27,072 nt of DNA from a virus, in the IMG/VR virus record IMGVR_UViG_3300030329_003542, positions 1 through 27,072 of that record; one strand, written 5' to 3'. A program made the position numbers and the translations under genes. Within the stretch, counting starts at the first letter, position 1. Each line of letters starts with the position of its first letter. Under the pieces are notes generated by a model. It did no database searches. It was not told the DNA's origin and was given only the letters and a program-made list of their open reading frames with translations. Shown piece after piece: positions 22,545-26,976 of this stretch.

Positions 22545-22744
22545 CCTTTTTTATATTTTTTCAAAGCACATTTCCCACAGTGAAATTGTCCAAGCAAAAC
22601 CAAATCAGCTTTGTTGTTACAAAAAGCGCACCAAAATCTTTGAGTGTTACTTGATTTATAAGTTTCTTTTCTTTTTTGGATAATTTTATTAATTCTTGCT
22701 TTTTGCTTCTCGCTGCGTCGGGGTATTGGTTTTAATTCAATCAT
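22541..22744 (-). CDS. Small zinc-ribbon protein
   Basis: 67 aa, last gene of the leftward operon. Its ATG overlaps the stop of the upstream gene (ATGA). The N-terminus (MIELKPIPRRSEKQKARINK) is basic, like the start of NinG/HNH-type phage nucleases. It is followed by CAFC and CGKC, two CxxC pairs that could hold a zinc ion. No HNH catalytic core is seen after them; the protein ends 8 residues later. It could be a nucleic-acid-binding relic or regulator. Its stop overlaps the endolysin stop on the other strand. Confidence 0.62.
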   Translation of the reverse strand: MIELKPIPRRSEKQKARINKIIQKRKETYKSSNTQRFWCAFCNNKADLVLLGQFHCGKCALKKYKKG

Positions 22745-23049
22745 AATATTGCTCTTTCCTCAATTTTTAGTTTATTTTTTTTTGCTAAATTTATTGCCAG
22801 TTTCATACCGTAAGAAACTCCATAATCAGTGTAAACTGCAAGTAAATCAGCGACTTTAAGCCATTGGAAGCTAGCCATAATTCCTTGGAAACGCTCTTTT
22901 TCATCAAGATCATTTAATACTTGAGTATAAAATAAATGAAAAGCAAGTGGACTTTCATTTCTGTTTAAACTATCTAATAGGGCTTTTTGAGCGTAAAGAG
23001 TGTTTCGCTCAACATTAAATCGATAAGGGCTTTCAATAATAACTTTCAT
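22741..23049 (-). CDS. DUF7768/DUF4406-like protein (nucleoside deoxyribosyltransferase-related fold)
   Basis: 102 aa. MKVIIESPYRF at the start, a following pattern ALLDSLNRNESPLAFHLFYT, and VYTDYGVSYGMKLAI match the phage DUF7768/DUF4406-type family, which is related in fold to nucleoside 2-deoxyribosyltransferases. In such proteins the second motif often contributes to the nucleotide site. It could alter nucleotides or serve as a binding protein, but no activity is established. It is coupled to the primase-helicase through ATGA and to the zinc-ribbon gene downstream. Confidence 0.7.
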   Translation of the reverse strand: MKVIIESPYRFNVERNTLYAQKALLDSLNRNESPLAFHLFYTQVLNDLDEKERFQGIMASFQWLKVADLLAVYTDYGVSYGMKLAINLAKKNKLKIEERAIL

Positions 23050-24908
23050 TGTAAATTGATAATGTTAGATCCACGAATTACAATTTTTGTTGAGCGACCA
23101 GACCGTGAATTATTTTCTTCTTGAACCTCTAAAACTTTTGTTTTGATCCAACCTTTAATAATTGTAATAATTTTTGCTTTATCGAATTTATCTTCAACAT
23201 TAAGTTCCAGCTCTTCAGCAATAATTTTCCCAACCCAATTGTCAGCGCTGTGATGCAATCGCGGTTTACAATCGTCTATTTTAAATTGTAATTTTCGAGC
23301 TTGTTGTAATGTTACGTCTGAAAATGCGTCTGGAAATTTCCAGCATTTTACAACACCAACTTCATCTGTGTTGTCTAGGGCTACAGACACTCTTTCATAC
23401 CAATTTGCTTGCAACAAAGAAGCTGACAAATTATTTTTTGCATCTTCCATTTTGAAGTGATGGAGATTTGTTTCCAAACCAGCTTTATCTGCTTCATCTC
23501 GTGACATTAAATTTAAAAGTCTAGCAGACCTGACAGCCGCAATTAGTGCGCTTCCACCCCTCACAGAATCAACGTCTGCCATATTCCCATTTAATTTTCT
23601 CGTGTGATGTACAATTTCAATTGACATTTTGGCTTTTTCTGCCAAGTGACTTAAACGCTTTGCAACTTCTTTAAAAATTTCGTTTGTTTCTAAAGAACTT
23701 GTCATATTCGCAAGCGGATCAAAAACAAGTACATCTATACAATTTTCAATACAAAAATCTTCAATTTTTAAAAAAGCATCTTCTTGTATTAAACCCTCCA
23801 ATCCTGCGGCTAACATTAAGTTTTGCTCTCGCCCAGACGCAACAAAAAGTTGGTTGATTAATTCCTCTTGTTTAATGTTAAAATATTCACAAATAGCAAT
23901 GACTCGACGCTCGATTTCGTCAAGTGGATCTTCTGCATTATAAAAAATTGTTTTGTATTTTTTTTGAGGCTGTATGCCCAATAAATTGCGACCAGTCGCC
24001 ATTGCAATACATTCAGTTAGGATTACAGTAGATTTTCCTAACCCCCCCTGAGAGGCGGTTAAACTTACATATTTACGGATATAATGATTTCCATAAATAA
24101 AATCTCTCGGAGCAATATTAATTGCACTTTTTACTTTCCAACTTTTAAACAGTTGAGTTGGAGAATAAATTTCTGTTTTATAAATAAGTTCATTTAATTT
24201 AACCTTATTTCCACCATTCGCAAGCCAGTCGCTAATATCTTCTTTTTCATTGACGGGTAGATGTAAAATTTTTATTGCTTTGACAATTTTTGATAGATGA
24301 GTCGCAACAATTTCAACGTGCTTTTCCCCAGCTTTGTCATTGTCAGGAATTAAAATTACATTTCTATCAATAAAATATTTATTAAGTTCTTTGTTCCAAT
24401 TCCCAGCCCCTCCAGAGTTACAAGTCGCAATTAAACCAAGTTGTGTTAATGCATCACAATCTTTCTCACCTTCACAAATAAAAATTGGTTTATCTGCATT
24501 ATTTACAATTTGTGGTAAATTGTAGGGTAGGGGTGTAATACCAGCTAAATTGAAAACATAACCATTATTAGTTTTACGTCTTGGCCTAAAAGTTTTTGGT
24601 TCAAAACGCACCACTTGATATATTTCTTCTCCTTTTTCATTTTTGTAACTATATTCTTTTACAATTTTTGGAGTTATTTGATTAATTCCTAAATCGTTTA
24701 AAAATGTAACAGGATCTTTCCCCTCGCGCTTAATTAAATCAACAAGACCACCTCCATGCCCTATTTCGTGATCAAAAAACGTACCTTTGCTTAAATCAAT
24801 ACTTAAAGAGCCAAAACTGCCATAGCGTAATTCTTTTGGTTTACTCAATTTTTTGTTTGGCTCACCAAGTAAACTTTTTACAATTTGCAAAGAGTGTTGT
24901 TCAATCAC
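23046..24908 (-). CDS. Primase-helicase: TOPRIM domain fused to RepA-like helicase
   Basis: 620 aa, starting at a GTG (minus strand, 24908-24906) with AAGGA 8 nt upstream. Residues 35-62 (SLSIDLSKGTFFDHEIGHGG) resemble the end of a primase zinc-binding domain, but no CxxC/CxxH ligands are present. TOPRIM motifs are EGEKD (146-150) and PDND (188-191). The ATPase has Walker A at 284-294 (TASQGGLGKST) and Walker B VLVFDPL (393-399), then HHTRK (434-438) and RGGSALIAAVRS (450-461), typical of RepA/AAA_25 hexameric helicases rather than DnaB. It should prime and unwind phage DNA. It forms the core of the leftward operon. Confidence 0.87.
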   Translation of the reverse strand: MIEQHSLQIVKSLLGEPNKKLSKPKELRYGSFGSLSIDLSKGTFFDHEIGHGGGLVDLIKREGKDPVTFLNDLGINQITPKIVKEYSYKNEKGEEIYQVVRFEPKTFRPRRKTNNGYVFNLAGITPLPYNLPQIVNNADKPIFICEGEKDCDALTQLGLIATCNSGGAGNWNKELNKYFIDRNVILIPDNDKAGEKHVEIVATHLSKIVKAIKILHLPVNEKEDISDWLANGGNKVKLNELIYKTEIYSPTQLFKSWKVKSAINIAPRDFIYGNHYIRKYVSLTASQGGLGKSTVILTECIAMATGRNLLGIQPQKKYKTIFYNAEDPLDEIERRVIAICEYFNIKQEELINQLFVASGREQNLMLAAGLEGLIQEDAFLKIEDFCIENCIDVLVFDPLANMTSSLETNEIFKEVAKRLSHLAEKAKMSIEIVHHTRKLNGNMADVDSVRGGSALIAAVRSARLLNLMSRDEADKAGLETNLHHFKMEDAKNNLSASLLQANWYERVSVALDNTDEVGVVKCWKFPDAFSDVTLQQARKLQFKIDDCKPRLHHSADNWVGKIIAEELELNVEDKFDKAKIITIIKGWIKTKVLEVQEENNSRSGRSTKIVIRGSNIINLQ

Positions 24909-25092
24909 TAAATAGGTCCTTCGGTCGTTGCAGAGGTGGTTCTATATAATCGCCCTGAGTTCTGACAATTTTCATACAATTTGGAACACTGCTAGAATTG
25001 TAATTAACATAAAAAGCATTACAATTTGCTTCAGCATTTGGCCCTTGAAATTCAAAGAAAATAAGGGCCACATAAACTGTAATTTCCTTCAT
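24901..25092 (-). CDS. Small hypothetical protein in replication operon
   Basis: 63 aa. Its ATG overlaps the stop of the upstream gene (TAATG on the minus strand) and its stop overlaps the primase-helicase start by 8 nt, so it sits fully in the operon's coupling chain. The sequence has a short hydrophobic start (VYVALIFFEF) and two cysteines about 15 residues apart (ANCNAFYVNY... NCMK). It is not recognised. Whether it is a binding partner of the neighbours cannot be read from sequence. Confidence 0.55.
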   Translation of the reverse strand: MKEITVYVALIFFEFQGPNAEANCNAFYVNYNSSSVPNCMKIVRTQGDYIEPPLQRPKDLFSD

Positions 25093-25601
25093 TAAAATTG
25101 TATATCAGGATCAGAAGATTTTTTTGGAGGCTCAATGTCTTCAGGCTTGTCTCTCCAATCAACAATTGTAAATAAAGGAATTCTTGTTGTACCCTTGCCA
25201 ATAGTTTCCGCTTTCGAGCCATTGGTTGAAATAGCTACAACTTTACCTTTATTTTTTTCCCATTGGCTATGAATTTCGCTCCAAAGAGCTGTCATGCCCT
25301 TTAAATTTCCAACCCCGTTTGCTTGCCATTCTCTCCAGCCAAAGTCTTTGACATATAACATAACACTAAAGCCTCGTTTATGTTCAGGGGTAGGTCGCTC
25401 AGATTTTACACCTAAAGTTTTATCAAATTGCCAATCTGGTGACTGTCCTTCTGAAATATGCCCCCACCCAGTTTTCATTGAGTCAGGATCTAAAAGAAAA
25501 CCTTTTAAATCGGTTTCGTCAGAATCAATAAACCAACCATTTACACTCGGTTTAAAAGCGATATATTCAGCTTTCACAGTGTCCATTAAACCTAAGTCCA
25601 T
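25092..25601 (-). CDS. Conserved phage protein with SSB-like acidic C-terminal tail
   Basis: 169 aa; AAGGAG lies 8 nt upstream of the ATG. Residues 8-20 and 31-60 contain patterns such as YIAFKPSVNGWF and KTGWGHISEGQSPDWQFD. The central RGFSVMLYVKDFGWREW is a recurrent segment in a family of phage proteins of unknown function. The C-terminus (154-169) reads EDIEPPKKSSDPDIQF: acidic with a terminal Phe, like the tip of bacterial SSB (DDDIPF) that recruits partners. Together with its position between a nuclease and a primase-helicase, this suggests a single-strand-DNA-binding role. That is inference; no OB-fold is demonstrated here. Confidence 0.62.
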   Translation of the reverse strand: MDLGLMDTVKAEYIAFKPSVNGWFIDSDETDLKGFLLDPDSMKTGWGHISEGQSPDWQFDKTLGVKSERPTPEHKRGFSVMLYVKDFGWREWQANGVGNLKGMTALWSEIHSQWEKNKGKVVAISTNGSKAETIGKGTTRIPLFTIVDWRDKPEDIEPPKKSSDPDIQF

Positions 25602-25942
25602 TACTTTTTCTCCTTTTTTTCTAACCAGCCCATTTTTTGAGCCATTTCAATCATTAGTTTTTCGGGGAGAACATAAAGACGGTTTTTTCTATCAGCTCGC
25701 ACAACCAACATGTCAGCATCATCTTGCTCAAACCAAATGTAAAGTGATTTAAAGCCATTGCCAGATTTGCGTCGCTTACACTCAATTTTTAAGCCTTCTA
25801 GTCTTACATCACCTTCAAATTCTTCCCCAACTTTTTTAAAAGCACCTGAGCCAAAAACTCGTTTGCAATTTGCACCCAAGTTGGTCCAAACGTCTTGCAC
25901 TTCCTTCTCTAATACATACCCCCTCTGTTTATTGCCCCTCAA
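25601..25942 (-). CDS. PD-(D/E)XK nuclease, Holliday-junction-resolvase-like
   Basis: 113 aa starting at TTG (minus strand, 25942-25940) within TTGA, overlapping the stop of the upstream gene. The motif set is complete: Glu12 or Glu14 in RGYVLEKEVQD, GSGAFKK, then GDV with Asp45, then ECKRR with Glu54 and Lys56, then VVRADRKNRLYVLP. This matches the archaeal-Hjc/VRR-type PD-(D/E)XK resolvase-like nucleases found in phages. It likely cuts branched recombination or replication intermediates. No upstream ATG is in frame, so the TTG start seems forced. It is coupled through TAATG to the next gene. Confidence 0.78.
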   Translation of the reverse strand: MRGNKQRGYVLEKEVQDVWTNLGANCKRVFGSGAFKKVGEEFEGDVRLEGLKIECKRRKSGNGFKSLYIWFEQDDADMLVVRADRKNRLYVLPEKLMIEMAQKMGWLEKKEKK

Positions 25943-26118
25943 ATGACACCTGCCTTCTTTTCGTCGTTATTTATATTTAATACATGTCTTTTATTTAATG
26001 CCTCAATAATAAGAACTTCTGCCATTTTAGAGATAGAAACACGCTCTTTTTTTGCATAAAGTTTTAATTGTAAACGTATGTTTTTATTTAAATAAATTTG
26101 TTGTTGTTCTATTTCCAA
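25939..26118 (-). CDS. Ribbon-helix-helix (Arc/MetJ-type) DNA-binding protein
   Basis: 59 aa from a TTG at 26118-26116 on the minus strand. AGGAGA lies 6 nt upstream of it; the ATG at 26151 has no such site and places the AGGAGA inside coding sequence, so I prefer the TTG. The protein starts MEIEQQQIYLNKNIRLQLKL; QQQIYLN is the expected beta strand of the dimer and two helices follow (RLQLKLYAKKERVS and SKMAEVLIIEALN). Such proteins bind palindromic operators as dimers. It is the first gene of the leftward operon and lies beside a palindrome (26151-26172), so autoregulation is likely. Confidence 0.75.
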   Translation of the reverse strand: MEIEQQQIYLNKNIRLQLKLYAKKERVSISKMAEVLIIEALNKRHVLNINNDEKKAGVI

Positions 26119-26124
26119 AATGTT

Positions 26125-26130
26125 TCTCCT
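26125..26130 (-). promoter_or_regulatory. Ribosome-binding site deciding the TTG start of the RHH gene
   Basis: AGGAGA on the minus strand, followed by a 6-nt spacer and TTG at 26118. This argues for a non-ATG start. Confidence 0.7.
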
Positions 26131-26150
26131 AAAAATAATTGTAAAAAACA

Positions 26151-26172
26151 TGTATTAAACACTTGTAATACA
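26151..26172. promoter_or_regulatory. Palindrome TGTATTA-N8-TAATACA, candidate operator
   Basis: Perfect 7-bp arms at 26151-26157 and 26166-26172 with an 8-nt spacer. Its location, 33 nt upstream of the ribbon-helix-helix gene start, suits a site bound by that protein. Binding is inferred. Confidence 0.5.
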
Positions 26173-26772: not shown

Positions 26773-26976
26773 ATGGAGCAATATTATTTTCGCCATGACC
26801 ACAATCTTGAAAGCCCAGTTGCAAAAGTTTACGAGCTTAATGGGAAATTAGTTTCAAAGGAAACTTGTTACAAGTGTATGCACAGTGGAGTAGCTGGTTG
26901 GCTTCCTCTCAAAAGTATTGACAAAAAATTAGATGCTTTAAACTGCAAGCAATTACACGCAAGATGGGGGGTATGA
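26773..26976 (+). CDS. Small hypothetical protein, rightward early operon
   Basis: 67 aa with AAGGGGG upstream of ATG 26773. The sequence (FRHDHNLESPVAKVYELNGK, then ETCYKCMHSG) contains one CxxC that might bind metal, but there is no second pair to form a full zinc finger. It is not recognised. Its stop overlaps a downstream ATG (ATGA at 26973-26976), indicating a packed operon. Confidence 0.55.
   Translation: MEQYYFRHDHNLESPVAKVYELNGKLVSKETCYKCMHSGVAGWLPLKSIDKKLDALNCKQLHARWGV

Follow-up and report, generated by a model that had tools for sequence, protein, structure and literature searches.

A phage protein family with a predicted OB-type barrel and a C-terminal aromatic tip, proposed as a single-stranded DNA-binding protein

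In the excerpted text of PMC5686142, the hallmark of the T7-type single-stranded DNA-binding protein (SSB) is a long helix right behind strand 2, and in other solved SSBs a capping helix is placed between strands 3 and 4. For the phages of the CRP-821 paper, the accessible sections state that an SSB gene is mainly identified in two subgroups (PMC12629253), and the phiCbK genome paper, in the portion available, reports no detected SSB for either phiCbK or its relatives (PMC3556154). A further protein that enters the comparison is gp3, the directionality factor (RDF) of phiC31. As far as the excerpt of PMC3132441 extends, its known role is to bind integrase, att DNA is not bound without integrase, and some RDFs may have further functions. 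Here, a virus gene is described that very probably encodes a phage SSB of a family unrecognised by the libraries searched; its product would bind ssDNA and is predicted to adopt an OB-type fold. The family assignment is new, and the function is an ordinary one.

The window, which is the whole stretch of DNA that was analysed (27,072 bases), corresponds to bases 1-27072 of a 35,102-base IMG/VR virus record (label G000). The gene lies in a cassette with the following features:

25939..26151, minus strand: ribbon-helix-helix (Arc-like) protein at the cassette head (weak: phrog_2639, 0.0034; PF07878, 22.4 bits, cut-off 26)
25601..25942, minus strand: RusA-like Holliday junction resolvase / PDDEXK nuclease, 113 aa (phrog_244, 3.7e-10)
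25092..25601, stop codon included, minus strand: SSB-like protein gene, 169 aa (ORF and translation, family alignment, model)
25146..25568, minus strand: predicted OB-type beta-barrel core of the SSB-like protein, approximately residues 12-152 (AlphaFold2 model)
25095..25118, minus strand: C-terminal tip SSDPDIQF of the SSB-like protein, residues 162-169 (disordered in the model; aromatic end conserved in relatives)
24901..25092, minus strand: 63-aa ORF between the SSB-like gene and the primase-helicase (relative in locus L007)
23046..24908, minus strand: primase-helicase (Toprim + RepA/RecA-like AAA_25), 620 aa (phrog_239, 3.4e-40; PF13481, 77 bits)
22741..23049, minus strand: DUF7768 / nucleoside 2-deoxyribosyltransferase-like protein, downstream of the primase-helicase (PF24963, 92 bits; phrog_355, 8.6e-18)

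The reading frame given in a preliminary description of this DNA is confirmed to the base and lies on the minus strand, which had been left unstated; read on the plus strand in frame from 25092, the same bases contain many stops. An overlapping plus-strand ORF of 152 aa is present in another frame (25294-25752). The only match to the SSB-like protein in the 35,102-base record is the protein itself, and relatives are found in other phages with neighbours in common; the gene is therefore considered real rather than a chance frame. The C-terminus of the protein reads ...EPPKKSSDPDIQF, with SSDPDIQF as the final eight residues, and the core is approximately neutral in charge (21 D/E versus 20 K/R). 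On the same strand, the genes follow one another in the order ribbon-helix-helix, nuclease, SSB-like gene, 63-aa ORF, primase-helicase and DUF7768 protein. PHROGs and Pfam scans, which covered ten window proteins, bear out the two neighbours named earlier, a resolvase-like nuclease (phrog_244) and a primase-helicase (phrog_239), with the 63-aa ORF intervening before the latter. The stop of the nuclease gene overlaps the start of the SSB-like gene as TAATG, the stop of the SSB-like gene overlaps the start of the 63-aa ORF in the same manner, and the first 8 bases of the primase-helicase gene are shared with the end of the 63-aa ORF. The TAATG overlaps on either side of the SSB-like gene suggest coupled translation. 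Elsewhere in the window, a 509-aa protein (217-1746) shows a weak likeness to polyvalent-protein ADP-ribosyltransferase domains (PF18760, 25.6 bits, cut-off 31.2). An exact common stretch, LNGKLVSKETCYKCMHSGVAGWLP, is observed in neighbouring ORFs at window 26773-26976 and L006:5044-5667, which is either a duplication or an assembly effect.

The family of the protein had been described as unknown, in agreement with sequence and profile comparisons to PHROGs, Pfam, NCBIfam and PDB sequences, none of which returned a useful relative; the weak Pfam matches are below cut-off and unrelated, and no sequence link from the family to any known SSB family was found. In contrast to these libraries, a search of IMG/VR with a four-member alignment recovers at least 80 loci with relatives, whose identity to the window protein is 47-57% in a close group and 20-32% beyond it. 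One record of the phage collection, MW202711, holds a relative that is 27.9% identical across 70% of the query; its annotation is hypothetical, and it is flanked by a 'holliday junction resolvasome' gene on one side and repA on the other. In an alignment of 45 sequences, D38, G45, W46, P70, P142 and W149 are invariant, and F169 is kept in at least 90%. By sequence, the window protein belongs to a broad phage family that is either unnamed or labelled nucleotidyltransferase in the libraries searched. The family is encoded with replication and recombination genes: among the matches listed, which are redundant, 72 of 81 loci of the wider family have a relative of the nuclease and/or the primase-helicase in the flanks, on either strand. 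In part of the branch that ends DEDFG, the resolvase and primase relatives are encoded some kb off on the other strand, and the tight cassette is thus not universal across the family. A single open frame at L003:476-1219 joins the nuclease to the SSB-like protein, with the nuclease end and the initial ~22 residues of the latter missing; a natural fusion, a deletion and an assembly error are the candidate explanations.

A distant branch is reached through Caulobacter phages. With a DEDFG-branch member as query, tblastn reaches Caulobacter phage proteins, the family of which is phrog_9528 (4/4 isolates scanned), and 63 phage records match one of them, CcrSC gp188, by tblastn. Alignment of the window family to the phrog_9528 branch with hhalign gives a prob of 98.7 (E 3.8e-16, 144 columns), compared to 0.1 for the reversed control, and matches to the window-family profile are obtained in CcrSC (2.4e-18) and phiCbK (5.8e-9). 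On these profile comparisons, phrog_9528 (phiCbK gp119, CcrSC gp188) is a distant branch of the window family. Like the window family, this branch is located in replication modules: a helicase gene is found downstream within the flank in 12 of 13 isolate loci, the exception being ctNMl277, and five of them (phiCbK, CcrSC, Mwe-JY26, RpAliso and RcXuper) have an annotated DNA polymerase upstream of the gene and a RecD-like helicase downstream. The isolate proteins differ in being longer (265-371 aa; 210 aa in ctNMl277), and all 13 carry long, disordered-looking tails of Pro, Ala, acidic residues and Arg. Their ends (RGRF, RRSF, RRF, NFG, NFD, RRRS) are mostly basic and RGRF-like or NFG/NFD, with no acidic tip.

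A structure of the window protein was predicted with AlphaFold2 from an input of this protein and 43 relatives (pLDDT 82.5, pTM 0.75). The core, residues 11-150, has a mean pLDDT of 76-95 per ten-residue block, and residues 157-164 and 166-169 are below 50. The longer elements of the model are strands 34-48, 75-84 and 88-94, a helix at 97-117, and strands 120-134 and 137-151; the resulting order, strand-strand-strand-helix-strand-strand, is that of an OB barrel. Judged by strand order, an OB fold is probable for the window protein. In comparison to T7 gp2.5, the model is without a helix after strand 2. Instead, its sole helix (97-117) is found between strands 88-94 and 120-134, a position equivalent to that of the helix in SSBs that are not of the T7 type. 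The OB fold, which had been named as a check on the SSB reading, is recovered as a predicted barrel and does not refute that reading. Matches to solved structures are weak: Foldseek gave no match in the PDB at E ≤ 0.001 and VIA-align gave Z scores to SSBs of no more than 4.2. The top Foldseek match in the PDB is PrgE (E 0.13, prob 0.44), which we take to have an OB fold. Among the weak PDB rows, polymerase epsilon and antibody chains are frequent and commoner than SSB-type chains; mitochondrial, Streptomyces and Deinococcus SSBs are at ranks 27, 28 and 41. When the best 1000 of Foldseek are re-aligned by VIA-align, 31 of the best 50 rows are SSB, mtSSB, RPA/Rfa1, hSSB1, HIN-200 or OBody (mostly by title), several of which are presumably HIN-200 chains. 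The SSB, RPA and HIN-200 chains have Z scores of 2.8-4.2, with SSB and mtSSB at most 4.2; according to the tool, scores in this range occur often between unrelated models and may reflect no more than a common arrangement. In BFVD, 10 structure matches are found at E ≤ 0.001, and the two that are named among the first five are an uncharacterised phage protein and phiCbK K4JPM6. With the bacterial SSB (PF00436), the window family shares a layout of barrel (here predicted), linker and tip, but the window protein has no sequence match to it.

The tail was compared in 60 distinct complete relatives from 81 loci among the matches listed, with the window protein uncounted and with L002, L005, L029 and L086 dropped as duplicates and L028 as incomplete. 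Of these, 37 end in F, 22 in FG and 1 in W, and 56/60 combine an F or FG end with at least three acids within the last eight residues. As a background, 722 other ORFs of at least 80 aa from the same listed loci include 42 that end in F or FG, only 19 of which are also acidic (13 end DE[IV]PF, 5 end DNLF, ADLF or EDLF, and 1 is other). In these sequences, the tail of the window family is therefore conserved beyond chance. After clustering of the 60 listed relatives and the window protein at 80% identity, 28 of 29 clusters are entirely F/FG and 24 are acidic too; at 60% identity the values are 15 and 11 of 16, and at 50% identity 4 and 2 of 5. The segment past the last Trp is composed of 17% Ala, 16% Pro and 18% Asp/Glu in the same set. 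A likeness of the tail to the bacterial SSB tip, as claimed in the preliminary description, accordingly holds at the level of the family, but the window tip itself is a weak example: it has only two acids in the last eight residues, short of the acid criterion, and it has Gln where E. coli SSB has Pro. A disordered linker with an (acidic) aromatic C-terminal tip is thereby found across the family and in weaker form in the window protein. Conservation of the terminal Phe, another of the named checks, likewise does not refute the SSB reading. A terminal aromatic residue is kept (59/60 listed relatives end F or FG), but it is not strictly Phe, since 12 of 55 family ORFs from a redundant sample of slot loci (the best 80 of 544) end in W, with 41 ending in F and 2 in FS or FE. 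Some W-ended branches are without acids (for example SAGAAASW), the member in L001 ends AENIF, and the member in L020 ends DDEIPF. An acidic tail alone was rejected as proof of an SSB, as tips vary (AENIF, EEQWF, DLF, W ends). Because of this variation, reliance is placed on the aromatic end, the fold and the slot together. As a separate observation, L019:10612-11106 encodes a terminase small subunit (Terminase_2, 26.7 bits, cut-off 26.1) with an acidic tail; look-alikes of this protein are present in L011, L021, L025 and L031, and the acidic tails of the set end DNLF, ADLF or EDLF.

The genomic slot was analysed with an alignment of four primase-helicases, using the best 80 of 544 loci, of which 79 were analysed and L014 was left out. 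In 52 of the 62 loci with 900 or more bases of sequence ahead of a related primase-helicase, a family member is carried upstream; the loci of this sample are redundant (not deduplicated), and several contigs are common with the family search. Of the 55 family ORFs in the sample, three are in loci with short upstreams, and the gap from the ORF to the primase match has a median of 54 bases (range 12-1764). The remaining 10 of the 62 loci are without a family member upstream. In three, small proteins ending [ND]D[DE]IPF lie just upstream of the primase-helicase, in the place of the SSB-like gene (L307:1488-1877, L314:2502-2822 and L315:2616-2984), two with a Cys pair near the start. In the other seven, no SSB candidate was found among the listed ORFs by comparison with the window family and the CRP-821 proteins.

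In Roseobacter phage CRP-821, the gene order is PDDEXK nuclease, 'ssDNA-binding protein' and primase/helicase. The SSB of this phage is gp2.5-like (phrog_112, 2.7e-17; PF10991, 28 bits, cut-off 26) and ends DLDDALPF. It has no blastp similarity of note to five window-family members, and the window-family profile finds no member in CRP-821, whereas the same profile finds one in the three other records tried. The T7 gp2.5 / Enc34-type SSB is therefore alike in its slot in CRP-821 and in its acidic tail with a terminal F (DDALPF), and differs in that PF10991, PF21265 and phrog_112 have no sequence match to the window family. A match to phrog_112 is absent from G000 and from 8 family-bearing phage records, CRP-821 alone having it (1/10); this profile matches 0/14 control genomes, although it finds the CRP-821 SSB. 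PF00436 is absent from G000 and from 9/9 phage records, and in its control it matches 12/14 genomes, 10 over cut-off. Judged from one gp2.5-type phage, a recognised SSB and the window family appear to take each other's place in a single slot. The earlier argument from position is strengthened by the conserved slot and by its occupation by a recognised gp2.5-type SSB in CRP-821. The earlier statement that no other SSB candidate is seen also holds for the virus record, in which PF00436, PF10991 and phrog_112 have no match; outside the window, there is a protein with the tail DDEIPF, which is predicted to be helical.

The slot bears on the alternative that host SSB coats the ssDNA and that the window protein, with its SSB-like tail, is an OB-fold accessory of replication or recombination: a helicase loader, an annealing protein or a recombination mediator. 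A host SSB would always be available, a position by a Holliday-junction nuclease suits an annealing or mediator protein, the RpAliso and RcXuper relatives lie directly after an annotated exonuclease, and PrgE, the first Foldseek row, is presumably a plasmid protein and not a replication SSB. This alternative is nevertheless unlikely, as a recognised SSB holds the slot in CRP-821, and a linker followed by an aromatic tip is the tail design of SSBs.

The DDEIPF protein of the same virus ends YDDEIPF and is encoded outside the window at G000:31841-32344 (= L006:9842-10345). Its family was exposed by the background tail count described above, in which 13 of 19 ORFs end DE[IV]PF. Sixteen members were first aligned after being picked by their tail, so that the tip is present in 16/16 by construction; identity to the first member falls to 20%. 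A 90-aa member in L001 has much of the middle missing and keeps DEIPF. An unbiased set was assembled with internal motifs, in which complete proteins from the best 80 loci were collapsed by their last 100 residues to 54. Among the matches listed, the tip fits a strict SSB-type pattern in 49 of these 54 distinct relatives and reads DDKIPF or DDEIPW in the remaining five. In many relatives, the gene follows just after the primase-helicase. The literature searches found no paper on phage and DDEIPF, and no phage protein that mimics the SSB C-terminus or DDDIPF appears in the titles or abstract openings that were returned. That this protein is the real SSB and that the window protein has another role is suggested by the frequency of the strict tip, but is very improbable. 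No barrel is present in the predicted fold, which consists of helices and a small alpha/beta part (pLDDT 76.7, pTM 0.54); the best Z score is 7.8, to helical bundles, which according to the tool may mean only a common arrangement, and the matches listed include no OB chain, which excludes nothing. Moreover, 51 of 80 loci of the DDEIPF family among the matches listed also carry the window family within the flanks. The one CRP-821 relative (28.4% identity) ends EGLFQHD, without the tip, in a phage with a recognised SSB that ends DDALPF. Among the matches listed, LF is the end of all 24 distinct window-family relatives near a DDEIPF protein, most of which have no acidic run.

Records of the distant branch carry varied labels: hypothetical, nucleotidyltransferase, polyribonucleotide nucleotidyltransferase, DNA polymerase III alpha subunit and peptidoglycan synthetase. 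These incompatible labels on one family are observed for phrog_9528, CcrSC gp188, CcrBL10 and RBC11. A nucleotidyltransferase, to which the phrog_9528 label and many phage records (as polyribonucleotide nucleotidyltransferase) point, is the least likely identity of all and barely credible, because the labels on one gene are inconsistent, no transferase domain is found by Pfam in 7 members (none from the phiCbK branch) or by NCBIfam in 5 (CcrSC gp188 included), and the predicted fold is a single small barrel. The nucleotidyltransferase, PNPase, Pol III alpha and peptidoglycan synthetase labels are probably all wrong. We think that phiCbK gp119 is, putatively, the missing SSB of phiCbK.

The best VIA-align row for the window model is the phiC31 RDF gp3 (PDB 9teh), with a Z score of 6.6 over 125 residues and an rmsd of 4.1. 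Unmerged profiles of the window family and gp3 gave prob values of 1.9 and 7.7, or 1.7 and 16.2 with more gp3 rows. A merged family profile compared with 59 gp3-like rows, which include phiC31 itself twice, gave a prob of 58.3 (P 9.7e-5), in register over 77 columns that cover the helix and flanking strands; this score was reached by 0/60 column shuffles and by neither reversal. Among gp3-like proteins from viral contigs, 10 of 52 end in F, four of them with at least three acids (L163 left out, open L155 uncounted). phiC31 gp3 itself has no acidic-aromatic tip, but DEPPF and EDEPAF ends are seen in some of its relatives. Neither SSB nor OB-fold is mentioned in PMC5814800, OB-fold and single-stranded are absent from PMC11530663, and OB-fold does not appear in further papers among the matches listed. 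The link between the window family and phiC31 gp3 is suggestive only. Several divergent gp3-type factors are observed to end EEPPF, DEPPF, PVPF, EPAF, KPAF, QPAF or DVPF, and gp3-type loci with a remote likeness in profile and fold to the SSB-like family are L105:3599-4333, L106, L107 and L110, as well as L145, L148, L151, L152, L154 and L168-L172.

With the window protein as a phage SSB, the OB-type barrel would coat ssDNA exposed at the replication fork and in recombination. A short disordered linker and then the C-terminal tip would follow the barrel, and the aromatic residue of the tip would dock on partner proteins, the likeliest of which would be the co-transcribed primase-helicase and the RusA-like nuclease. 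We infer ssDNA binding, co-transcription, docking of the tip and the identity of the partners from the features described above. A broader scheme, which is speculative and on balance doubtful, joins the three families: the SSB of these phages would be made of two proteins, in which the window protein would be an ssDNA-coating barrel with a phage-specific aromatic tip, the helical DDEIPF protein would recruit or hijack host SSB partners in trans through its exact copy of the bacterial tip, and the barrel family would be the ancestor of phiC31-type RDFs.

If the SSB assignment is true, it would provide a function for a gene family of many environmental and isolated phages that is now unnamed or labelled nucleotidyltransferase, and it would fill the SSB gap noted for phiCbK-like phages. 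It also points to a second phage protein, in which the bacterial SSB tip is carried on a non-SSB body.
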